A stretch of DNA of 64,000 nucleotides. Source: Bacteroides sp. Lineage in GTDB: Bacteria; Bacteroidota; Bacteroidia; Bacteroidales; Muribaculaceae. The translations under genes and the position numbers were made by a program. Below are positions 7,251 to 23,998 of this stretch, in pieces. The stretch spans positions 1 through 64,000 of the forward strand of contig JAAVDA010000024.1 in assembly GCA_014802045.1 (NCBI GenBank). Direction: 5' to 3'. The notes beneath the pieces are model-generated. The model was not told where the DNA came from, made no database searches, and saw only the letters and a list, made by a program, of their open reading frames with translations. The stretch's first letter is position 1. Every line of letters begins with the position of its first letter.

Positions 7251-9509
7251 ATGTTACAACCAATCAAAAAAACCATCGCCCTGCCCGATGGTCGCGAGAT
7301 TACTCTCGAGACCGGTAAGCTGGCAAAGCAGGCGGATGGAGCGGTAGAGCTGCGCATGGGCAACACCATGCTCCTCGCCACAGTGGTTTCCGCCAAGGAG
7401 GCCGGCGAAGGAGTTGATTTCATGCCCCTTCAGGTAGAGTACAAAGAAAAATTCTCATCTTTCGGACGTTTTCCCGGTGGCTTCCTCAAAAGAGAGGGAC
7501 GTGCCTCCGACTATGAAATTCTGACCGCACGTCTTGTAGACCGTGTGCTCCGTCCTCTTTTCCCGGATAATTACCACGCTGACACTTTTGTCAACATCAC
7601 CCTTTATTCCACCGACGGCGAGGATATCCCCGACGCGCTGGCCGGTCTCGCTGCATCGGCTGCCATAGCTGTGAGCGATATCCCCTTCAACGGTCCCATC
7701 TCTGAGGTGCGTGTGGCCCGCGTAGATGGCGAATTTGTGATTGACCCCACATTCTCCCAGCTTGAGCGCGCCGATATGGAGCTCATGGTCGGTGCCACCT
7801 ACGACAATATCATGATGGTCGAGGGCGAGATGGACGAAGTCTCCGAAGCCGACCTTCTCGCTGCCCTCAAGGCCGCTCACGAAGCCATCAAGGTGCAGTG
7901 TCTCGCTCAGGTTGAGCTCGCCAAGGAAGTGGGCATAGCAAAGCGCGAATACTGTCACGAAGTCAACGACGAGGCTCTTCGTCAGGATGTTCACGACAAG
8001 TGCTACGACAAAGCCTATAAGATTGCTCAGGCAGGATGTGCCGACAAACACTGGCGCGCCGAGCAGTTTGAAGCAATCTGCAAAGAATATATCGAATCGC
8101 TCCCTGAAGAAGAGCGCGACGAGAAAACCCCGCTGGTAAAGCGCTACTATCACGACGTTGAGAAAGAGGCTGTGCGCCGCTGCATACTCGACGAAGGCAT
8201 CCGTCTCGACGGCCGCAAGACCACCGACATCCGTCCCATCTGGTGTGAGGTCGACTATATCCCCGGCCCTCACGGATCGGCCGTGTTCACCCGTGGCGAG
8301 ACCCAGTCACTCTCCACTGTGACCCTCGGCACAAAGCTCGATGAAAAGATTGTGGACGACGTGATCAATCAGGGTCGCGAGCGCTTCCTGCTCCACTACA
8401 ACTTCCCCCCCTTCTCAACCGGCGAAGCTAAGCCCGTGCGTGGTGTGGGCCGCCGCGAGGTTGGCCACGGAAATCTCGCCCATCGTGCGCTTAAGCGTAT
8501 GTTCCCCGATGATTTCCCCTACGTTTGCCGCATTGTCAGCGACATCCTTGAGAGCAACGGCTCCTCATCCATGGCCACTGTCTGCGCCGGCACTCTCGCC
8601 CTTCTCGATGCAGGCGTGAAGATGAAAAAGCCCGTCAGCGGTATCGCTATGGGTCTCATCACCGATGCCGACGGTTCAAAATATGCCGTGCTTTCAGACA
8701 TCCTCGGCGACGAAGACCACCTCGGCGACATGGACTTCAAGGTGACAGGCACACGCGACGGTATCACCGCCACACAGATGGACATCAAGTGCGACGGACT
8801 CTCCTACGAGATTCTTGAGCGCGCTCTCCTGCAGGCCCGCGACGGACGCCTCCACATCCTCGATATCATCTCGCAGACCATCCCTGCCCCCCGCGAAGAC
8901 TACAAGCCCCATGTGCCCCGTATCGTCACCATGACCATCCCCAAAGAGCTCATCGGAGCTGTGATTGGCCCGGGCGGAAAGGTGATCCAGGGCATTCAGG
9001 AAGCCAGCGGTGCCACCGTTTCTATCGACGAAATAGACGAAGGCGGCTATATCGAGGTTGCCGCTTCCAACAAAGCCTCTATCGACAAAGCTCTCGAAAT
9101 GATCAACGCTATCGTCGAACTCCCCGAAGAGGGTAAAGTCTACACCGGCAAGGTGCGTTCGATTCTTGAATTCGGCGCGTTTGTTGAATTCATGCCCAAC
9201 CGCGACGGTCTCCTCCACATCTCCGAAATCTCATGGAACCGTCTTGACGACATGGCCGCATCCGGTCTGAAGGAGGGCGACACCGTTGAGGTGAAACTCA
9301 TCGAGATAGATAAGAAGACAGGCAAATATCGACTCTCTATGCGAGCTCTTCAGGCAAAGCCCGAAGGCTATGTAGAGCGTGAGCGCGCTCCCCGAGGCGA
9401 GCGTCGTCCCAACAATGGCGACCGTCCCCGGCAGCCCCGCCGTGATGGCGACCGTCCCCGTCGTGAAGGAGGCAACCATGGCCCCCGTCGCGACAACAAC
9501 CCTGAATAA
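7251..9509 (+). CDS. pnp: Polyribonucleotide nucleotidyltransferase (PNPase)
   Basis: A phosphorolytic 3'-to-5' exoribonuclease of 752 residues acting in mRNA turnover. Two RNase PH domains are separated by the helical linker. The second holds the catalytic region [15 protein letters not shown] and the [16 protein letters not shown] segment. A KH domain ([17 protein letters not shown]) lies near residue 566 and an S1 domain ([18 protein letters not shown]) near residue 626. After the S1 domain comes a tail of about 45 residues made of Arg, Gly, Pro, Asp and Asn, probably a disordered RNA-binding extension. The ATG at 7251 gives the standard N terminus [17 protein letters not shown] hairpin follows the stop codon. 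Confidence 0.97.
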
Positions 9510-11879: not shown

Positions 11880-13085
11880 ATGGACATCTATGCAGTGCGC
11901 CGCCGGGGCGGATGGATTCTATTGGCCGTGGCTGTGGCTGTGATAGGAATATTTGCATATTTCTCATCGTCGCTTGTGAGCGAGCTTGCCGCCCAGGAGC
12001 GCTCGCGTATGGAGCTCTGGGCCGACGCCACACGTCGGCTCGCCTCAGAGTCGGCCGACGGCGCCGATGTAGACTTTCTGCTCTCCATCATCGAGGCCAA
12101 CCGCACTATCCCGGTGCTTCTCACCGACGCAGACGGACGCATACTTCTCCATCGCAATTTCAATCTCCCTGAACCGGCCGACACTCTCGACCCCCTCTCC
12201 ATCTCCGCGGCCAACGAGGCTTTTCTCCGCAGTCGGCTCGCCGAGATGCGCCATAGTCCGCGCGTGATCGGCATTGAGATAGCTCCCGGAGTCATGCAGC
12301 ATCTCTATTACGAAGACTCGCGCCTGTTGCGGCGCCTGAGTCTTTTTCCCTATGTGCAGATGCTTGTGATGGGGGTGTTTATCGCTGTGGTCTATTTCGC
12401 TCTGACGGCCACAAAAAAGGCCGAGCAAAACAAAGTGTGGGTTGGCCTGTCGAAAGAGACAGCCCATCAGCTCGGCACCCCCATATCATCGCTCATGGCA
12501 TGGATGGACTATCTCCGCACCATTGCCCCTGAGGCGGAGAGTGCCGTCACTGAGATGGAGAAAGATGTGGAGCGTCTGGCCGCCATAGCATCACGCTTCT
12601 CCAAGATTGGCTCCAGTCCCGGTCTGGAAGAGGGGAGTGTGGGCGAGGTGATGCTCCGCTCGGCCGCCTATATGCGCAACCGTGTGTCGGGCAAGGTGGT
12701 CTGGACGGTGACAGACCTCTCGGCCGGAGCCATAGTGGAGATGTGTGAGCCGCTCCTCGAATGGGTCATGGAAAATCTTATCAAGAATGCTGTCGACGCC
12801 ATGAGTGGAGAGGGGAGTCTCACCCTTGTGTGTGCCGCCTCATCAACCCATGTGTCGATAGAAATCACAGACACCGGGCGCGGCATTGCCCGCCGCGACT
12901 TCAAGCGCATATTCCAGCCCGGATTCACCACCCGCAAGAGAGGATGGGGACTCGGCCTCACTCTTGCCCGACGCATCGTGGAGACCTATCACCACGGCCG
13001 CATCTATGTGCGTGCGTCTGAGCCCGGTCGGGGCACCACATTCCGAATAGATCTCCCTCTCAAAGACCAAACTCACACTGATTGA
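11880..13085 (+). CDS. Membrane sensor histidine kinase, NtrY-like
   Basis: A 401-residue kinase with one transmembrane helix near the N terminus (ILLAVAVAVIGIFAYFSS), a short extracytoplasmic domain of about 130 residues and a second helix (MLVMGVFIAVVYFALTA). The dimerisation/His box reads KETAHQLGTPISSLMAW (His near residue 196). This variant recurs in Bacteroidetes kinases. The HATPase domain follows (LIKNAVDAMSG, DTGRGIARRDF, RGWGLGLTLARRIVE). The ATG at 11880 lies 7 nt after the preceding kinase gene, and the antiporter gene begins 2 nt after its stop, so all three genes should be cotranscribed. No cognate regulator is nearby. Confidence 0.9.
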   Translation: MDIYAVRRRGGWILLAVAVAVIGIFAYFSSSLVSELAAQERSRMELWADATRRLASESADGADVDFLLSIIEANRTIPVLLTDADGRILLHRNFNLPEPADTLDPLSISAANEAFLRSRLAEMRHSPRVIGIEIAPGVMQHLYYEDSRLLRRLSLFPYVQMLVMGVFIAVVYFALTATKKAEQNKVWVGLSKETAHQLGTPISSLMAWMDYLRTIAPEAESAVTEMEKDVERLAAIASRFSKIGSSPGLEEGSVGEVMLRSAAYMRNRVSGKVVWTVTDLSAGAIVEMCEPLLEWVMENLIKNAVDAMSGEGSLTLVCAASSTHVSIEITDTGRGIARRDFKRIFQPGFTTRKRGWGLGLTLARRIVETYHHGRIYVRASEPGRGTTFRIDLPLKDQTHTD

Positions 13086-16198: not shown

Positions 16199-16586
16199 AA
16201 TCTGTAACATCCCAATGAAAGACGTAATATGGGTCAATGTAAAAAAGTGGTTGTTAAAAGGGAGTTGTTGAGCTAATGAAAGTAGTGAGCCAGGCCGGGA
16301 TGGCCTGATATCTTGTTAGCCCCGCACGCTTGCGTGCGGGGTGGATAGTATCACACATCTCCCACGACCCCGGAGAGGGTCGGACTAATTGTAAACAAAT
16401 ATGTTCATGAATGTTATGATGCGTCTGTGCGGTACGACCCGCTCCGGGGTCGGAATGTGATTGGGGCTGGCTATTCCCGGCACGGCACGTGCCGGGTTAA
16501 CAAAATCATGGCCCTCCGGGCCTTTTTTAACTTATAAACTGAGGTTTACCACTGACCCGCTTTCTAACAATTCAACCGGGTTTTGC
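16198..16586. repeat. Island-flanking direct repeat, copy 1
   Basis: Positions 16431-16586 match 23843-23998 in the same orientation at 151 of 156 positions by my alignment. A further 33-nt block, 16198-16230, matches 23769-23801 at 31 of 33. Between the blocks this copy has about 200 nt with its own perfect hairpin CCCCGCACGC-TT-GCGTGCGGGG (16320-16341) and CGACCC-n6-GGGTCG (16365-16382), where copy 2 has only about 41 nt. The 156-bp core holds CGACCC-n6-GGGTCG, CCCGGCAC-n5-GTGCCGGG and GGCCC-n3-GGGCC followed by six T. The stretch from 16587 to 16728 shows nothing else that I recognise. Confidence 0.85.
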
Positions 16587-16728: not shown

Positions 16729-19584
16729 TTATTTTTTACGTTTCTTCGGTTGGCGGTTGAACCGATATTGCACGTGAAACATGAAATAGCGGGGCAACAC
16801 GCTGACGTATGTTTCTGTTCTCGCCTGAGCATTGACATTGGATGTGACGTTGCTCAGATTGTGCAACATGTCAAATCCGTCAAGCATGAGTTGAAGCTGA
16901 CCTTTCATCAGCGAATAGCTGAGTCGTGCGTTCCACACCAGGTCGGTTGTGTTCAGCTTGCGGTTGCAGTAGCCTGACCGGGTGAAAACGTTGAAGTCCG
17001 TAGAAAGCTGGAGAGCCGGAGTTATGCTGATCAATGCGTTCACGCCATATTGCTGAGTCCAGGTATTCATATTTGCCATATCGGAGTAATTCCGATAGGT
17101 CACATCAGCATTGGCTCCTATAGAATGTTTGCCAAGCGAGTAAGCTAGTTTAAGAATCTCATTGACCCCTTTAGTCACTACCTTATTGCGGCTTGGCTCT
17201 GTGTCATCTTCGCCAACGAGATCCACGCTGTTGACTATGCTTGCCTTTGTCAGAGATTGCAATGTTATCTGCTTTGTCTTGCCGAACTGCAGTCCGACAC
17301 CGTATGAGGCGTTTGCATCCCAGTTGCCGTTGACATTGTATGTCTTGTAGCGTCGTATGCCGGTGGCGCTTTCGTAGATATAGCCTTTCGACAGGGCGTT
17401 GTCGAGCAGAGAATAACGTAAGGTTATAAACTGCATTACCCGTGTCTTAGGATTGACCAATTCCGTTCCGAGCCTGAAACTGTGAAGGTGTGAATTTTTG
17501 AGACCTGAATTTCCGAGATATATGTTCATCGGGTCAACAGCGTCGGTCATGTCGACAAGATTTATCAAATCCGGAGTCTCAGAAGTCATGTTGTAGTTGA
17601 ACTCCACTTTCTTGGTGCGGTCAGCGGCCTGCCATTGAATGAAGGTATTCTCCACATTGACCAAAATAGTGTTTCGCCTGATATGCGCATCGATGTCTCC
17701 GCGAAGATAGTCAAGAGTCCTTCCCGCTACGGTGACTGGCAAGTTTACCTGTCCACTCCAGTTGCCCTTGTCGAATACGACTAGAGGCGATAACGTATTA
17801 TCATTATCCAGATAATGGCTTTTATAACTGTTTGAGCGGTCGATTGTCGAGGCATATTCCGCCATAGACGGAAGCTGTCCTATGGGAAACTGTCTGTCTG
17901 CGTCTGTTTCATGAAGGTTGTAAAGGGTAGAGTTAGCATTGCGTATGGAATGCGCGTACCGATATGTCAGTTCAAGCGATATGCCCTCAGCCAGACGCCT
18001 GTTGTAGCCGGCTGTTGCTCCGAATCTCGAATTATTATTCGGTCGGTTCTTGAAGTAGCGATCAAGATACAGATTCATGTCGGGATTCTCGCCGTATTCA
18101 ATAACGTAGCGATTAAATCTGTCATCACGTAGATTATTATAGTTACCGAAAGCTCCCAAACGTATGATGTCTGAACTACCATTGATTTTAATGCGTGAGT
18201 TGGCAGTGAGGCCGGCAGTCAGGGTCTTTGCCCGGTTTAGATTTTCATTGACCGTCCTGTTGATAAGGCCGCTTGTATATCCTGGAGTTGTGCTTTCTGC
18301 ACTTGACATAAGGTCATCAAAGGTGATTCCCTGAACATCAGAAGAGAATGTGGCACTCGCATTTGTTGTGGTGTTGTGACGATTGTTGTATTCGAAACGA
18401 GGTGTGACAGTCAGGTCAAACATCTTGCGCTTGAAATACAATTCATGATTGGTAGAAATCCGGAATGTTTTTGAATGATTCCCAATGAAAGTACGGTCGT
18501 ATGTATCTCCGGCTGTAAGAAAATTCGTCCGGTAAATACTTGTCTCGTCATCAAGAGTCTCATGACTGATCTGTACATTACCCGAAGCTTTCCATCCTGC
18601 GGTCTTCTTATCAGTGACATAATCAAATCCGCCTGTATCCGACTTCTTGACACCTGATTTTAGTTGTTCCGGCTTCCATGAATCGGCTCGCCCCGGTTTG
18701 CGGTCATCGTTCAGGTTGTTGGCGTTGGCATATACAGTCAGTCTGGTATCCGAGTTAAACCACATTCCGAAAAGCCGACCGAGATAACGGTCATGTGTGC
18801 CCCCTCCGGCTTCGGCATTTAGTATCAACCCGGTAGAATACTCTTTCTTTAGCCTCACATCCATTACAAGCTGCTTATCATTACCGAGATTTCGTCCGGC
18901 AAACTCACTTGCATCTCCGGCTTTGTCATATATTTTGACATTCTTGACTGCGTATGCTCCGATATTTTCCAACATAAGCTGATTGTTGCCGTTGAAAAAG
19001 TGCTTGCCGTCAAGTAGCAGGGACTCTATCTGTTTCCCATTATAAAGTATCTGACCATTGGATTTAAGTTCGACACCCGGCATTTGACTGATGAGCGCGT
19101 CAAGCATAGAACCGTTGGACAGTTGAAAAGCATCGGCATTAAACACCACAGTATCGCCATGATGAAAAAACTTAATGCGCGAGGAAGTCACCGTCACTTC
19201 TCCGAGTTCACGGGATTTTGGACTCAGTAAAATCAAGGGTAACTCGACTCTTCGTACACGCTCCCCATAGGCAGACGGATCTACCTTTATAAACTCGTTG
19301 TCATATCCCGAAGCACTGATTTCTATTAGGTAGGAAGAAGAACGAGACGGTAGGGTGAGAGTGAAAGCCGATGTGATTTCCTCTTCTCCATGACGCATTG
19401 CACGTCGATAGGCAGATGATGCGGAGACGTAAGCGGAGTCGGGCAACGACAACAATCGTACCGTTGCACCAACGAGGTCCTCCTTATCGTTTTTGTCACA
19501 CACGCGCCCGTCTATAGTAAATGACTGTGCGAGACTAGCGTTTATGCTAATGATTGTTAGTAATAGCGTTATGAAGAATCTCAT
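16729..19584 (-). CDS. Outer-membrane beta-barrel protein with regulatory and plug domains (OMP_b-brl_3 type)
   Basis: A 951-residue protein with a signal peptide (LLLTIISINASLAQ), an N-terminal carboxypeptidase-regulatory-like beta-sandwich (FTIDGRVCDKNDKEDLVGATV), a plug-like domain (GDTVVFNADAFQLSNGSMLDALISQMPGVELKSNGQI) and a barrel of about 700 residues ending VLPRYFMFHVQYRF followed by a basic tail. This is the TonB-receptor-like family common in Bacteroidetes, often of unknown cargo; no TonB box is obvious. It lies 19 nt after the truncated paralogue and is the last gene of the leftward unit that begins with the glycosyltransferase fragment. It is therefore probably driven by the operator-controlled promoter at 20937-20981. 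It is richer in A+T than the chromosomal neighbours. Confidence 0.88.
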   Translation of the reverse strand: MRFFITLLLTIISINASLAQSFTIDGRVCDKNDKEDLVGATVRLLSLPDSAYVSASSAYRRAMRHGEEEITSAFTLTLPSRSSSYLIEISASGYDNEFIKVDPSAYGERVRRVELPLILLSPKSRELGEVTVTSSRIKFFHHGDTVVFNADAFQLSNGSMLDALISQMPGVELKSNGQILYNGKQIESLLLDGKHFFNGNNQLMLENIGAYAVKNVKIYDKAGDASEFAGRNLGNDKQLVMDVRLKKEYSTGLILNAEAGGGTHDRYLGRLFGMWFNSDTRLTVYANANNLNDDRKPGRADSWKPEQLKSGVKKSDTGGFDYVTDKKTAGWKASGNVQISHETLDDETSIYRTNFLTAGDTYDRTFIGNHSKTFRISTNHELYFKRKMFDLTVTPRFEYNNRHNTTTNASATFSSDVQGITFDDLMSSAESTTPGYTSGLINRTVNENLNRAKTLTAGLTANSRIKINGSSDIIRLGAFGNYNNLRDDRFNRYVIEYGENPDMNLYLDRYFKNRPNNNSRFGATAGYNRRLAEGISLELTYRYAHSIRNANSTLYNLHETDADRQFPIGQLPSMAEYASTIDRSNSYKSHYLDNDNTLSPLVVFDKGNWSGQVNLPVTVAGRTLDYLRGDIDAHIRRNTILVNVENTFIQWQAADRTKKVEFNYNMTSETPDLINLVDMTDAVDPMNIYLGNSGLKNSHLHSFRLGTELVNPKTRVMQFITLRYSLLDNALSKGYIYESATGIRRYKTYNVNGNWDANASYGVGLQFGKTKQITLQSLTKASIVNSVDLVGEDDTEPSRNKVVTKGVNEILKLAYSLGKHSIGANADVTYRNYSDMANMNTWTQQYGVNALISITPALQLSTDFNVFTRSGYCNRKLNTTDLVWNARLSYSLMKGQLQLMLDGFDMLHNLSNVTSNVNAQARTETYVSVLPRYFMFHVQYRFNRQPKKRKK

Positions 19585-19603: not shown

Positions 19604-20476
19604 TTAGCAGGTTTCACCTGTCTTGTGTAGGAAATGGAGATAGAGGAATTCATCAAGATCGTGTTTGATTAGCGGACAAACATTATTGTAACCTTTCTTC
19701 AGAGTAACGTCGATAACATATTTATCCGGGTCAGACTCTACTTTGCGGCCAAACACTTCCCTTGAGAGACTTGCCTGTTCATAAACTTTGATATTCTTAA
19801 TCGTATATGCGGGGAGATTCTGGAGGAGTACAAACTGCTCTCCTTGGAAGAAATCCTTTCCGTCGAGGAGCAGTTTATCTACAAAGCGTCCGTTCACATA
19901 AATCTGGCCATTTTCGCGCAGCTCAACTCCGGGCATTTTTTCAAGAAGTGCATCAAGCATAGACCCCTGAGCCACAGCAAATGCATCGGCATTATATTGG
20001 ATTGTGTCACCTTTGTTTACCACTTGCACAATTGAAGCTTTTACTACAACCTCACCCAATATTACATCTTTTTCAAATTTACTGAGTTTCCGGATTTTCA
20101 GCATACCCAAATCACTGCTAAATCCATTAACTGTCACCGGGTAGCTTACCTCGTCGTAGTCAGGATGCTGGAGGCGAACAATGAAATTATTCCCCGCTCC
20201 TTTGAACGGGATATCGAATTGATAAATCAGCTCATCACCATTGCGATATTCACGCGATGTATTGAGATGATTATAATCTGATGCAACTATCACACTATCG
20301 GCATCTAAAATATCCACTTTTATAGAGTCACTCACATAATGCCCCGTCACAAGGTTCATTATGTTGCCTTTTAGACGATGCTCTAAGACTCTTGAGCTAC
20401 CTTTGTCTTGACCTGACATATAGAAGAATACACTCAAGAATATAAAAATCATTACTAGTTGTTTATAATATCTCAT
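19604..20476 (-). pseudogene. Truncated paralogue of the outer-membrane barrel protein (plug region only)
   Basis: A 290-residue reading frame with a signal peptide (MIFIFLSVFFYMSG), a beta-sandwich and a plug domain that aligns with the downstream 951-residue protein (GDTIQYNADAFAVAQGSMLDALLEKMPGVELRENGQI, then LLLDGKDFFQGE). Homology stops right after DVTLKKGYN, the point where the paralogue enters its barrel. The last 23 residues or so, ending LHFLHKTGETC, are unrelated sequence up to a stop. The barrel is missing, so this is a 3'-deleted remnant. The start and signal peptide are intact, so a secreted plug-only product could still be made. It lies between the truncated glycosyltransferase and the intact barrel gene. 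Confidence 0.75.
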
Positions 20477-20519: not shown

Positions 20520-20909
20520 TCAATTCGGTTGTCCATGAGAGTCAATCCTTACTGCCTGGGAGCAGAACGCAGCAACTTCGGGATGGGTCTCAAGATAGTT
20601 GTATTGGATCTGCAGGCGGTCAGGCATCATGATATCGTCGGCATCCATTCGGGCAATATAGTGTCCGCGTGCTTCGCTGAGAAGGGTGTTGAGCGAGGCA
20701 ATGAAGTCGTGAGGCCGACAGATAAGACGGATACGAGAGTCGGAGTATGAGCGTACGATATCGGCACTGCTATCGGTAGATCCGTCATCGACAATGAGTA
20801 GCTCAAAGTCGGCAAAGGTCTGAGCCAATACGCTGTCAACACACTCGCGCAGATGTGTGGCGGCGTTGTACATAGCCATGCAGACGGATATTTTTGGAGT
20901 GATTGACAT
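20520..20909 (-). pseudogene. Truncated family 2 glycosyltransferase
   Basis: Only 129 residues, covering the N-terminal half of a GT-A fold glycosyltransferase: ISVCMAMYNAATHLRECVDSVLAQT, the nucleotide-binding DFELLIVDDGSTDSS and the metal-binding RMDADDIMMPDRL. It stops at RIDSHGQPN, before the acceptor-binding half; family members are usually 250-330 residues. It is therefore probably inactive, although the reading frame up to the stop is clean. It is the first gene of the leftward unit and has the operator-type promoter at 20937-20981 directly in front of it. No continuation of the gene is visible in the 43 nt before the next frame. Confidence 0.75.
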
Positions 20910-20936: not shown

Positions 20937-21021
20937 CAAAATTAGATTGCGTGTGTCATCCTTCTATTACACAAAAGGGTAATTCTTTGAGGTTGAGGTT
21001 ATTTATACACTTTTGTGTAAT
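20937..21021 (-). promoter_or_regulatory. Operator-controlled promoter of the glycosyltransferase/barrel unit
   Basis: On the minus strand the -7 box TAATTTTG (20937-20944) has no TTTG at -33. The 13-mer ACACAAAAGGGTA lies at 20969-20981, leaving exactly 24 nt to the box. A second, near-palindromic copy (ACACAAAAGTGTA on this strand, 21006-21018) has its centre 37 nt further upstream. The predicted transcription start near 20931 places the first operator centre at about -44. Confidence 0.7.
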
Positions 21022-21035
21022 GTGCTTGAATTGGC

Positions 21036-21662
21036 TCACGATGCCACTAAAAGAGGATAATATCTTTGATAAAAACGTGTTAGCCCCCGCTTACTTGAAT
21101 AAACAGGAATTGTTTCAGAAGCGAGATAAATCATAGGTTCCCCTATCTGACGTGTCTCTATGCCGAGGAGATTCATTACTCGGAGTAGATGGCTGTCTGT
21201 CTCAGCAATCATATAGCTGTCGTCCTCACGCAGTATAGGAGCCACGGCGAGAGTCATAAGTTGTTTGAACAGGGTTATGGTAGACAGACCTGATGTGGAA
21301 TCTATAGCAAAGCGTCCGATATGCCAGAAGGATGTTTGCGGAGTGTAGGTTACTTTTTCCAGCGGGGAGATGTGGAAAATTTTCTGCATTGGTGTTGGGG
21401 TTAGCTTGTCCCATTTGAACACTCTTATGCATCCGATCATTTTCCCATCTGCGTTCACTACGATGAAATACATCGAAGTTCCTGAATAAGCCAGCTCTTC
21501 ATGGAATATGTCCTCGATTTCCTGATTTGATGTCTCCGGGATAGAACCGTATGAATGATGACTGTAATTCTGTGTTACAACGAATCTGGCTATATCATGA
21601 AGCCGGTCTGTTCCGACTTTGATAATAGAGTAGTCACTGCATGACCAAACAATATCCTCCAT
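21036..21662 (-). CDS. GNAT-superfamily N-acyltransferase, LuxI/FeeM-like
   Basis: A cytoplasmic protein of 208 residues, the usual size of LuxI-type synthases. Features of the acyl-homoserine-lactone synthase/FeeM branch of GNAT enzymes are visible: the central strand pair MYFIVVNADGKMIGCIRVF (residues 64-82), the signature-like WHIGRFAID (113-121; LuxI proteins have E-x-SRF-x-V here) and the C-terminal pattern LLGIETRQIGEPMIYLASETIPVY (165-188), which matches the G-x5-8-G-x-P-x-x-Y end of FeeM-like N-acyl amino acid synthases. By family it would transfer an acyl chain to an amino group of a small molecule; the substrate is unknown. It is divergent from the LuxR gene, and the shared region carries two inverted operator copies. 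The start at 21662 follows a TAGTTTTG box by 26 nt. Confidence 0.62.
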   Translation of the reverse strand: MEDIVWSCSDYSIIKVGTDRLHDIARFVVTQNYSHHSYGSIPETSNQEIEDIFHEELAYSGTSMYFIVVNADGKMIGCIRVFKWDKLTPTPMQKIFHISPLEKVTYTPQTSFWHIGRFAIDSTSGLSTITLFKQLMTLAVAPILREDDSYMIAETDSHLLRVMNLLGIETRQIGEPMIYLASETIPVYSSKRGLTRFYQRYYPLLVAS

Positions 21663-21688
21663 AGTTAAGACGGTTTTGAATTTTCCCG

Positions 21689-21733
21689 CAAAACTATTAG
21701 GAGCTAATATCCTAAATATGACACAAAAGGGTA
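21689..21733 (-). promoter_or_regulatory. Operator-controlled promoter of the GNAT gene
   Basis: Minus-strand -7 box TAGTTTTG (21689-21696), no TTTG element, and the 13-mer ACACAAAAGGGTA at 21721-21733, again exactly 24 nt upstream of the box. Confidence 0.72.
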
Positions 21734-21758
21734 TTACAGCCGACTATGGATTGAAAAT

Positions 21759-21811
21759 TACCCTTTTGTGTAGTATGTTGTGCTCTGTGTGGTGGAATTT
21801 TATTATATTTG
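21759..21811 (+). promoter_or_regulatory. Operator and promoter of the LuxR-type gene
   Basis: The same 13-mer in inverse orientation (TACCCTTTTGTGT, 21759-21771), followed on the plus strand by TATATTTG (21804-21811). The spacing here is 32 nt instead of 24. Together with the GNAT site it forms a 51-bp interrupted inverted repeat (21721-21771). Confidence 0.65.
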
Positions 21812-21834
21812 CACAATAATTGATACTCGGCATT

Positions 21835-22599
21835 ATGACTACCAATATCCAGACAGGCGACTTCTTTTCACTTCAAAATTCGGTGGAAAATATTACAGAG
21901 GCCGATTATGAAAAGACAGGACTCATTATAGAGGCAGCAGAGGCCTTCGAAAGGAGCACGTATCAGTGTGTATATATCATAGATTATTTCAAGAAGGGCT
22001 TTCTATATGTATCCAAGAATATTGCCCGTCTGTGTGGAGGCGACGCTGAGAAGATTAAAGATTTCGGATATCTATTTTATATAGACTATGTTCCGGCGGA
22101 AGATCTGAAGATGCTTCTCGAGATCAATAACAGCGGCTTCAAGCTATTCAATACCTTTCCGGTAGGAGAGAGAAAAGATTATACTATCTCGTATGATTTT
22201 CATATCTTAAGAGGACGGCGCAAGCGACTTATAAACCATAAGCTGACACCTCTGATCCTGACAAAAGATGGCCGAATCTGGCTTGCGATATGCACAATAT
22301 CGCTTGCGGCGGGTAATGATCCGGGTAATGTTATTATGAAAAGACCAGGTTCCGGGATGTTCTATCAGTATTCCCTCTATGACCACAAGTGGGAGAAGCA
22401 TAAGGAAATTACGCTGACCGATAACGAGCGGGAAGTTCTCTCACTGTCGACTCAGGGATATACTATGAATGAGATAGCCGACAATATATGCAAATCGGTT
22501 GATACCGTCAAGGCTTGTAAACGCAGTATATTTCAGAAGATGGATGTCAAGAATATCGCAGAGGCCGTGACTTATGCACAAAATCATCAGCTGATATAA
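21835..22599 (+). CDS. PAS-LuxR type transcriptional regulator
   Basis: A 254-residue protein. The N-terminal part (about 35-165) looks like a PAS-type sensor domain of the Bacteroidales kind: VYIIDYFKKGFLYVSKNIARLCGGDAEKIKDFGY, then FHILRGRRKRLINHKLTPLIL and WLAICTISLA. The C terminus (about 190-254) is a LuxR/NarL helix-turn-helix: LTDNEREVLSLSTQGYTMNEIADNICKSVDTVKACKRSIFQKMDVKNIAEAV. No receiver domain or autoinducer-binding domain of the proteobacterial LuxR type is present, so ligand sensing would fall to the PAS-like domain. The ATG at 21835 lies 24 nt behind the TATATTTG box. It is convergent with the ThiF gene with 3 nt between the stops. It is the natural candidate to bind the 13-mer operators around it (inference). 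Confidence 0.85.
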   Translation: MTTNIQTGDFFSLQNSVENITEADYEKTGLIIEAAEAFERSTYQCVYIIDYFKKGFLYVSKNIARLCGGDAEKIKDFGYLFYIDYVPAEDLKMLLEINNSGFKLFNTFPVGERKDYTISYDFHILRGRRKRLINHKLTPLILTKDGRIWLAICTISLAAGNDPGNVIMKRPGSGMFYQYSLYDHKWEKHKEITLTDNEREVLSLSTQGYTMNEIADNICKSVDTVKACKRSIFQKMDVKNIAEAVTYAQNHQLI

Positions 22600-22602
22600 T
22601 TG

Positions 22603-23358
22603 TTACGCAGGGTCGCAGCGTAGAGAGGAGAAGTAGAATTTAGGAAAGTATTTTACTTCGCGGCCGGTGATTATATCAAACATGGCATTGGCGCATAGTC
22701 CGGCCACAATCCATGAGGCAACCGAAAGTTGAGGCGGGGGTAACTCTCCCGGTTCCATTCTGTATGTCTCGATTACATCATCGAGCCAGCGGTTAGGCAT
22801 ATTCCAGAATGTACAGTAGCGGGCGACAAACTCAGCCATCTTGATCTCGAATCCTTCATAAGATGCTGATACCTCCCTTAGCTGATAGCTGCCGGGCTTG
22901 ATGATGGTGAGAAATGCTCCCCATCCGAAATTGTAAGGATGTAGTACGGGAATCTTCTTTTTAGAACAAAGTTCATCAAACACAAACGGGATGTCGCTCT
23001 TGAAATCAAGGGCGTTGATAGCTATGTCTACACCCTCAAGAAGTTCGCTGACATTATCATTATCAATGAAAGTATTATAAAAGCGGATATTAGCTTTTGG
23101 ATTAATTTTAAGAAGTCTTTTGGTAAGGGATTCCGCCTTGGGTTTGCCAATATCGCTCTTTACATAGTTCTGCCGGTTAAGATTGGAGAGCTCCACCTTA
23201 TCGCCATCGACTATCGCTATATCTTCAAATCCGAAGCGAAGAGCGCATTCTGCAATTATACTGCCAATACCGGCTCCACCGAGCAATATCCGGGTTTCAC
23301 GTATCTTTTCCTGCTCTTCCGGACTCACATAAATTCTATTGCGGTTATATCGATCCAT
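22603..23358 (-). CDS. ThiF/MoeB/HesA-family E1-like adenylyltransferase
   Basis: A 251-residue member of the family that adenylates a carboxyl terminus, either of a small protein such as ThiS or MoaD or of a peptide as in MccB. Features are YNRNRIYVSPEEQEKI with the E1-type Arg, the nucleotide-binding loop GGAGIGSIIAE (residues 27-37), DGDKVELSNLNRQNY (51-65) and the magnesium-binding Asp in INALD (118). The two CxxC zinc pairs of MoeB/ThiF are absent, and no ubiquitin-like partner or short peptide gene is found nearby. The start MDRYNRNR at 23358 is favoured over an upstream Met because it matches the family N terminus and lies 25 nt downstream of the promoter box. Its operator-type promoter puts it in the same regulon as the GNAT gene. 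Confidence 0.8.
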   Translation of the reverse strand: MDRYNRNRIYVSPEEQEKIRETRILLGGAGIGSIIAECALRFGFEDIAIVDGDKVELSNLNRQNYVKSDIGKPKAESLTKRLLKINPKANIRFYNTFIDNDNVSELLEGVDIAINALDFKSDIPFVFDELCSKKKIPVLHPYNFGWGAFLTIIKPGSYQLREVSASYEGFEIKMAEFVARYCTFWNMPNRWLDDVIETYRMEPGELPPPQLSVASWIVAGLCANAMFDIITGREVKYFPKFYFSSLRCDPA

Positions 23359-23383
23359 ACTGGGATATATTTGAATAATGCGA

Positions 23384-23428
23384 CAAAGATAGGTCGGATG
23401 AAGCGAGTCGGAATAACACAAAAGGGTA
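23384..23428 (-). promoter_or_regulatory. Operator-controlled promoter of the ThiF-like gene
   Basis: Minus-strand -7 box TATCTTTG (23384-23391), no TTTG at -33, and the 13-mer ACACAAAAGGGTA at 23416-23428, exactly 24 nt upstream of the box. Confidence 0.72.
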
Positions 23429-23770: not shown

Positions 23771-23998
23771 ATCTGTAATATCTCAATGAAAGACGTAATA
23801 TATACTGTAAATCAATATTTTAATAAATGATAAAATATGTGAGGTACGACCCACTCCGGGGTCGGAATGTGATTGGGGCTGGCTGTTCCCGGCACGACAC
23901 GTGCCGGGTTAACAAAATCATGGCCCTCCGGGCCTTTCTTAACTTATAAACTGAGGTTTGCCACTGACCCGCTTTCTAACAATTCAACCGGGTTTTGC
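23769..23998. repeat. Island-flanking direct repeat, copy 2
   Basis: The counterpart of the repeat at 16198-16586: a 33-nt block at 23769-23801 and the 156-bp core at 23843-23998. The three internal hairpins of the core are kept, but the T6 run after GGCCC-n3-GGGCC is broken by a C here. The two cores bracket about 7.3 kb. Confidence 0.85.

Follow-up and report, generated by a model that had tools for sequence, protein, structure and literature searches.

A palindromic operator at a fixed promoter distance accompanies a LuxR-type regulator and a putative acyl-signal synthase in Muribaculaceae

In this study, we analysed a 64,000-nt stretch of DNA (hereafter the window) from a Bacteroides sp. 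of the family Muribaculaceae (GenBank assembly GCA_014802045.1, contig JAAVDA010000024.1, positions 1 to 64,000), in which one short operator recurs between the genes of an island encoding a LuxR-type regulator, a GNAT acyltransferase, a ThiF/E1-like adenylyltransferase and a glycosyltransferase. From sequence comparison we consider it highly probable that this PAS-LuxR protein activates promoters lacking a -33 element from a position near -41, in a feedback loop that includes a putative acyl-signal synthase. The sites, their spacing, their pairing and the link between LuxR and operator are the parts of this proposal that the comparisons support. The following features are needed for the argument; operator strands denote the direction towards the promoter, and the strands of the 13-mer matches are given separately in the text.

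20937..20944, minus strand: -7 box TAATTTTG of the glycosyltransferase operon
20969..20981, minus strand: operator, reading TACCCTTTTGTGT towards the promoter, 24 nt from the glycosyltransferase-operon -7 box
21006..21018, plus strand: partner operator TACACTTTTGTGT, head-to-head, centre 38 bp from that of operator 20969..20981
21036..21662, minus strand: GNAT acyltransferase, nearest to FeeM/LuxI-type synthases (below family cut-offs), 208 aa
21689..21696, minus strand: -7 box TAGTTTTG of the GNAT gene
21721..21733, minus strand: operator of the GNAT gene, 24 nt from the GNAT -7 box
21759..21771, plus strand: partner operator, head-to-head, centre 39 bp from that of operator 21721..21733, 32 nt from the luxR -7 box
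21804..21811, plus strand: -7 box TATATTTG of luxR
21835..22599, plus strand: LuxR-type regulator, predicted PAS-like fold and GerE helix-turn-helix (HTH), 254 aa from ATG
22603..23355, minus strand: ThiF/E1-like adenylyltransferase, 250 aa
23384..23391, minus strand: -7 box TATCTTTG of the ThiF gene
23416..23428, minus strand: single operator of the ThiF gene, 24 nt from the ThiF -7 box

All five 13-mer sites named in the original prediction were recovered by scanning the window, four of them exact (20969-20981, 21721-21733 and 23416-23428 as plus-strand matches, 21759-21771 as a minus-strand match) and one with a single mismatch (21006-21018, minus strand). With up to two mismatches 8 matches were found, compared with a mean of 0.71 and a maximum of 3 in 100 dinucleotide shuffles (0/100 reached 8). 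The claimed distance between operator and box in front of the glycosyltransferase, GNAT and ThiF genes was exactly 24 nt in each case (TAATTTTG, TAGTTTTG and TATCTTTG), and TTTG, described as missing at -33, was absent by eye from all three spacers. The luxR-facing operator 21759-21771 has its box at 32 nt, a distance that the prediction had not listed. Several luxR-facing spacers (e.g. window 21772-21811 and G202:C25:8270-8322) have TATGGC and ATTTTAT in common. The near-matches at 12821, 24039 and 27828 showed no box within the ~80 downstream bases inspected, and site 24039, having none, was dropped as a regulon member.

The 13-mer corresponds to an imperfect 14-bp palindrome, TAC[C/A]C-TTTT-GTGTA, read in one orientation; the palindrome centre lies 30.5 nt upstream of the first box base. 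Promoter elements of B. thetaiotaomicron are centred at -7 and -33 according to excerpts of PMC7366714. With the box centred at -7, the middle of the operator would lie near -41 instead of the -44 given in the original prediction. Class II activators usually sit near -41.

To see how far this arrangement extends, 397 genomes of the family were scanned for the exact 13-mer followed by TAnnTTTG with gaps of 14-44 nt allowed, and for the reversed pattern as control. There were 34 matches in 10 genomes (33 in the scan listing and one known from other scans) and none for the control; 25 had a gap of 24 nt, 8 one of 31-33 nt, all luxR-facing, and one of 42 nt (G251, contig C6). After removal of redundant copies on contig C3 of the source genome (see below), the counts were 22, 7 and 1 (n=30). 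Allowing at most two mismatches at a gap of exactly 24 nt raised the number to 119 of the 397 genomes, against 18 with the reversed control. Related operators were among the additional matches, for example TACACTTTTGGGTATGGC and TACCCATTTGGGTATGGC; we call these class B (the class names A and B were coined in this analysis). When any four central bases were allowed in the loci fetched for inspection, part of which had been chosen because they match at 24 nt, 52 of 66 operator-box units had the 24-nt gap, 10 a gap of 31-33 and 4 other gaps. Sequence logos of 33 class A and 36 class B promoters, with operator arms and box conserved as selected, extend the box to TAnnTTTGC. In class A, the spacer shows little conservation (most positions <0.4 bit, a few up to 0.9), so that the distance is kept more than the sequence, and no conserved TTTG appears at the expected place of the -33 element. 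Class A promoters therefore have a class II layout: a fixed 24 nt, an operator centre 30.5 nt from the box and no conserved -33 TTTG. This layout bears on whether the operator could instead be a repressor site at which bound LuxR or another protein blocks transcription, which we regard as improbable. Looping repression is conceivable where head-to-head sites surround divergent promoters, and the luxR-facing site stands at a different distance, but a centre near -41 without a conserved -33 TTTG is the usual place of a class II activator, and repression would not call for 24 nt to be kept so exactly across spacers of weakly conserved sequence.

The source genome is 75.7% complete in 37 contigs and holds 11 exact 13-mers, divided between the window locus (4), contig C3 (4) and contig C15 (3). 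Contig C3 is 99% identical to the window region in two blocks (~18.8 of 19.0 kb fetched); at this identity it was rejected as a second gene copy and taken as redundant assembly, and the metagenome-assembled genome seems to mix two strains here. Both assembled haplotypes (C3 and C24) have the same operator arrangement. The fetched C3 stretch (G000 contig C3:28000-47000, L018) contains N letters, and its 290-aa plug-like protein ends differently from that of the window. Contig C15, by contrast with C3, is a true paralogue with ~75% identical DNA, a ThiF 80% identical and a LuxR ~85% identical to those of the window; its luxR is split by a frameshift (L019:7786-8632), through assembly error or decay. 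Both of its target promoters have the 24-nt distance and luxR has 31 nt, GNAT is absent, and two barrel-like proteins are 47 and 50% identical to the Pfam OMP_b-brl_3 protein of L069. Two off-cluster one-mismatch sites in the genome (C21 and C28) are both without a box. The expectation that the sites are confined to the cluster and its homologues was borne out at two levels: within this 75.7% complete genome, exact sites occur only in the cluster, its assembly copy and one paralogue, and within the family exact operator-box units occur only in genomes with a close LuxR (10/10, among 397). That the repeats arose by chance or by recent duplication of intergenic DNA is scarcely credible. The C3 copy is indeed an assembly duplicate, but the 8 observed matches compare with 0.71 in shuffles, flanks and spacers differ between sites, and the rule also holds in other genera and one other family.

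The operators are frequently paired. The fetched loci contain 34 operator pairs separated by less than 120 bp; 31 are arranged head-to-head at a centre distance of 37-39 bp (23 at 38, 7 at 39 and 1 at 37), and the remaining three were same-strand pairs at 39, 59 and 37. A partner operator scoring at least 12/14 was found 37-39 bp upstream in 44 of 69 promoters; of the 25 promoters without one, a single promoter has such a partner at another distance within 15-99 bp. In the class A clusters whose promoters were listed, ThiF is single-site and GNAT double-site; most class A effector promoters are double-site, those of L062 and L071 single. Head-to-head pairs would probably allow cooperative LuxR binding. 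A partner kept without a visible second promoter favours such binding over a mere divergent arrangement, as at 21006-21018, downstream of which no same-strand gene start occurs before the convergent GNAT end. In L058, two GNAT genes (8719-9345 and 12060-12686) encode proteins identical in the alignment, and after each of these genes come a double operator and an effector gene. The pairs are also inverted repeats ~25 bp apart, which could suit a site-specific recombinase acting on an invertible promoter, or RNA stem-loops; excerpts of PMC8748976 describe invertible promoters in Bacteroidales. We considered and rejected both forms of this explanation as very improbable: the individual sites are already near-palindromes, a partner at 37-39 bp is lacking at 25 of 69 promoters, the distance to the -7 box is fixed, and the C3 and C24 haplotypes are arranged alike. 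No recombinase was among the annotated cluster proteins, in which no search aimed at recombinases was made.

As to the protein that would read these sites, of the recurring genes (LuxR, ThiF and GNAT) LuxR alone encodes a recognised DNA-binding protein. Its start is most likely ATG 21835, which corrects the earlier annotation. The GerE HTH scores 45.2 bits against a Pfam cut-off of 23.5 and is found in 25/25 homologues at E<=1. The predicted structure (predicted local distance difference test, pLDDT, 88.6) has a PAS-like N-terminus; in Foldseek, the Bacteroides regulator 3clo ranked first, VqmA chains took ranks 3-10 and RhlR rank 14, and further matches were heme, light-sensing and HIF/ARNT PAS proteins, all at low full-length TM-scores (0.3-0.46). 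The Pfam PAS domain was found in 0/25 homologues, and the Pfam autoinducer-binding domain was not among the 24 Pfam families that they matched. The N-terminus is thus PAS-like as a predicted fold.

Close LuxR orthologues (71-100% identity; the next is at <=53%) occur in 12 of the 397 family genomes, and all 10 genomes with exact operator-box units fall within these 12 (hypergeometric 2.8e-18, a value that, like the related counts, is illustrative only because of shared ancestry). The other two carry one-mismatch operators, TACACTTTTGTGT in G196 and TATCCTTTTGTGT in G027, both at 24 nt. Operator letters also track five residues of the recognition helix in 63 sites from loci with a single detected helix, although these sites are related by descent and not independent, and the comparison carries no tree correction. 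Operator position 4 is C in 20/21 sites with helix ACKRS and 1/1 with AYKRS, and A in 7/9 sites with ASKRS or ACKRG. With KYRQR it is A in 16/17 sites and position 11 is G in 17/17; with KYRKQ or KYRKR position 4 is C in 10/11 sites, and with KYRKA or KYRKS the letters are A and T in 4/4. Loci L019, L068, L073, L074 and L076 have operators, no helix was detected in them, and they were left out. When 20 loci were fetched for their LuxR, 14 held an operator-box unit by the pattern and L077 one with one mismatch.

The trio also recurs outside the family. Two genomes of other Bacteroidales families (G744 and G749) have the GNAT-LuxR-ThiF triad, with LuxR 45 and 48% and ThiF 53 and 60% identical. 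In G744, a perfect 14-bp palindrome, TACACTTTTGTGTA, lies between GNAT and luxR and again before ThiF, at 24 nt from TACTTTTG (GNAT), 31 nt from TATCTTTG (luxR) and 24 nt from GACCTTTG (ThiF); read towards GNAT, AAAA replaces TTTT at its centre, and the luxR-side site has another box-like sequence, TAAATTTG, at a distance of 2 nt. The G749 assembly has a broken GNAT gene and yielded no clear operator of this form. A scan of 384 genomes of the order (378 outside the family) with a degenerate operator pattern matched only the source genome and one other (1/378 outside the family; control, 2 genomes); it undercounts, because the G744 sites were missed through their other centre orientation or the GACCTTTG box. 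Co-occurrence across genomes, tracking of operator letters by the helix and conservation in another family together tie LuxR to the operator. This link is well supported by the comparisons, and the PAS-LuxR of the cluster is likely the operator's binder, as the original prediction had proposed; the term PAS holds for the predicted fold and not for a Pfam domain.

The enzyme encoded beside luxR is weakly FeeM/LuxI-like, and we treat it as a putative rather than proven acyl-signal synthase. Pfam FeeM matches 8 of 9 GNAT homologues at E<=1 (best 9.8e-7), and W-H-I-G-R is invariant in the GNAT alignment. With the GNAT model (pLDDT 86.6), Foldseek placed FeeM first, TofI second, PaiA third, LasI fourth and BjaI seventh, at TM-scores of ~0.5-0.6 and with 360 chains at E<=0.001. 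GNAT most likely makes an acylated small-molecule signal, and the odds that this product would be the LuxR ligand are about even. The ThiF protein most likely starts at ATG 23355, again correcting the earlier annotation; a start at TTG 23421 was rejected, as it lies upstream of the promoter box. It matches Pfam ThiF at 8.7e-38 and has the glycine-rich loop and DGD/NRQ region, which are adenylation motifs. In class B clusters (L065-L067, L069, L070, L080, L082, L084-L087, L089 and L092-L094), a LuxR ~50% identical stands beside a short ThiF-like protein of 127-209 aa, and the class B operator variants are likewise at 24 nt.

The genes downstream of the operator at 20969..20981 are the following.

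20520..20909, minus strand: family 2 glycosyltransferase of 129 aa with a truncated look (its Pfam match spans 1-120 of 168 domain positions)
19604..20476, minus strand: 290 aa, probably a plug-like part of an outer-membrane barrel protein (Pfam Plug E 0.12)
16729..19584, minus strand: probable outer-membrane protein by reading, 951 aa (best Pfam CarbopepD_reg_2 E 0.12, below cut-off)

The plug-like gene likely belongs to the glycosyltransferase operon; its product is 33% identical over 108 aa to a barrel protein of L058. For the 951-aa protein, no Pfam family passed its cut-off and BLAST against the six barrel/plug proteins compared gave no match; its 89% identical relative in G027 stands under a similar operator and promoter. 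A 161-bp direct repeat, 95-96% identical, flanks the island on both sides (16426-16586 and 23838-23998); it was rejected as part of the system, being a dispersed repeat because the stretch that holds a copy has 14 matches in the genome. In relatives, the effector operons contain small open reading frames (ORFs), radical SAM enzymes, OMP_b-brl_3 barrels and C39-peptidase ATP-binding cassette (ABC) exporters, as in L057 and L062. By Pfam, L057 and L062, with the same operator and spacing, encode a radical SAM enzyme and a C39-peptidase ABC exporter, and L071 has a small ORF, a radical SAM enzyme and a barrel. Small ORFs of 76 and 84 aa show a GG motif by reading and no NCBIfam match. By gene content, the operons with radical SAM and peptidase-ABC genes appear similar to those for ribosomally synthesized and post-translationally modified peptides (RiPPs). 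L054:6063-10671 and L056:8780-13570 place plug, DUF4249 and lipoprotein-like ORFs under the shared operator, and RiPP genes were not seen there. In the window cluster, neither a radical SAM/C39-ABC pair nor a peptide precursor was seen. The 38-bp head-to-head pairs, the luxR-facing spacing, the weak FeeM/LuxI likeness, the relatives' RiPP-like operons and the truncated look of the glycosyltransferase had all been missed by the original prediction.

Besides the shared descent that affects the co-occurrence and covariation counts, several points weigh against a LuxR-driven feedback loop with a signal synthase. Five of the 20 LuxR-fetched loci are without an operator-box unit (L088, L090, L091, L095 and L096), 4 of 20 pattern-fetched loci have no LuxR in the stretch (L068, L073, L074 and L076), and in G198 and G271 LuxR lies several kb away from the other cluster genes. 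The window GNAT falls below the family cut-offs of Pfam FeeM (18.9 bits against 27), Pfam Autoind_synth (16.6 against 24, with a weak match in 2/9 homologues) and the exosortase-associated acyltransferases of TIGR03694 (E 2.4e-5, 23.9 against 111.95 bits). PaiA at Foldseek rank 3 and SpeG chains stand close to the signal synthases, and a sequence-profile search of the PDB with GNAT gave one generic GNAT only. GNAT was found in 1 of 34 genomes of the genus, the source genome itself; at 1e-8 it occurs in 3 of 374 genomes of the order, the other two in other families. It is absent though LuxR is present in C15, in the LuxR-A clusters of G235, G067 and G027 as fetched, and in class B clusters, where five aligned ThiF-like partners have lost the adenylation region and kept the C-terminal half and its motifs. 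The short glycosyltransferase and the weak plug match suggest that the window effector operon may be partly decayed.

Some of these points lend weight to an alternative that we find possible, if rather doubtful, namely that no signal is made: PAS-LuxR would sense a diet- or host-derived molecule or redox, and GNAT and ThiF would be tailoring enzymes for an exported peptide or other product. PAS folds bind many ligands, and the fold matches of LuxR include heme PAS proteins, the light sensor EL222 and HIF PAS. The ThiF, GNAT and glycosyltransferase domains suit peptide tailoring, the likeness of GNAT to signal synthases is weak, and clusters such as C15 and those of class B do without it. Tailoring alone, however, sits poorly with a GNAT-LuxR-ThiF triad kept together in two other families, with a divergent operator region common to GNAT and luxR, with GNATs that match FeeM best in Pfam and have autoinducer synthases among their top folds, and with a window cluster in which no peptide precursor was seen.

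For the LuxR-driven loop, we infer the following steps. A LuxR dimer would occupy the place of the absent -33 element and recruit RNA polymerase (class II activation), aided in cooperative binding by the second head-to-head operator 38 bp further upstream at GNAT and most effector promoters; the ThiF promoter would use one operator, and the luxR site would act at 31-33 nt. Activation of GNAT and ThiF by LuxR, and perhaps of luxR as well, would let the circuit amplify itself, and a positive loop is a hallmark of autoinduction. GNAT would make an acylated small-molecule signal, with ThiF possibly activating a carboxyl group; the PAS domain would sense it, and effector operons for RiPP-like production and export and for outer-membrane proteins would be switched on together. 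Operator, sensor, putative signal enzyme and peptide-export/outer-membrane genes look like a cell-to-cell signalling circuit. The fuller proposal is put forward tentatively, at slightly less than an even chance: a native quorum-sensing system of gut Bacteroidales, in which a FeeM/LuxI-fold enzyme and an E1-like adenylyltransferase would make an acyl signal of new chemistry for PAS-LuxR, and two dimers 38 bp apart would fire RiPP and outer-membrane operons.

The locus resembles known systems in part. As in LuxI/LuxR, a synthase-like gene stands beside a LuxR-type regulator under the same palindromic operator, and the lux box palindrome sits near -42. Unlike LuxI/LuxR, its LuxR lacks a Pfam autoinducer-binding domain, its GNAT is below the LuxI family cut-off and has W-H-I-G-R where LuxI has W-E-x-S-R, and there are a ThiF partner, double operators and a Bacteroidetes promoter type. 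By the features tested, the locus stands outside the LuxI/LuxR family of N-acyl-homoserine lactone (AHL) systems, and it may work similarly to LuxI/LuxR or VqmA. VqmA, the PAS-LuxR quorum-sensing receptor for 3,5-dimethylpyrazin-2-ol (DPO), shares the domain order, whereas identity to the locus LuxR is 14-17% and full-length TM-scores are ~0.3-0.4; the VqmA operator differs, and we know of no linked FeeM-like GNAT or ThiF. The FeeM N-acyl amino acid synthases (PF21926) are the best Pfam family for the GNATs and Foldseek rank 1, but the window GNAT is under the curated FeeM cut-off and, to our knowledge, no LuxR regulon is linked to them. Regulator 3clo is the top fold match of LuxR, but at 18-19% identity, and a literature search on its identifiers gave no relevant paper. 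Excerpts of PMC10352776 describe Bacteroidales clusters of a small ORF, radical SAM enzyme, peptidase-containing ABC transporter (PCAT) and outer-membrane protein that are like the relatives' effector operons; in the main text LuxR and ThiF have 0 mentions, whereas the relatives' operons share a common operator. In the open-licence literature, which leaves most subscription journals outside, we found neither a LuxR-type operator described in Bacteroidales nor a report of linked LuxR, FeeM/LuxI-like GNAT and ThiF in this order.

A human gut study found AHLs and Bacteroides luxR-like genes and no synthase gene, and suggested, in the excerpts of PMC9738069, that gut synthases may differ from known ones. 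If the quorum-sensing interpretation is true, the locus would be a candidate for an acyl-signal synthase of the kind missed by a gut-metagenome search with known LuxI genes. It offers a testable synthase candidate together with a receptor and an operator code for genome-wide prediction, and it suggests that some gut RiPP operons might be silent in culture for want of such a signal.

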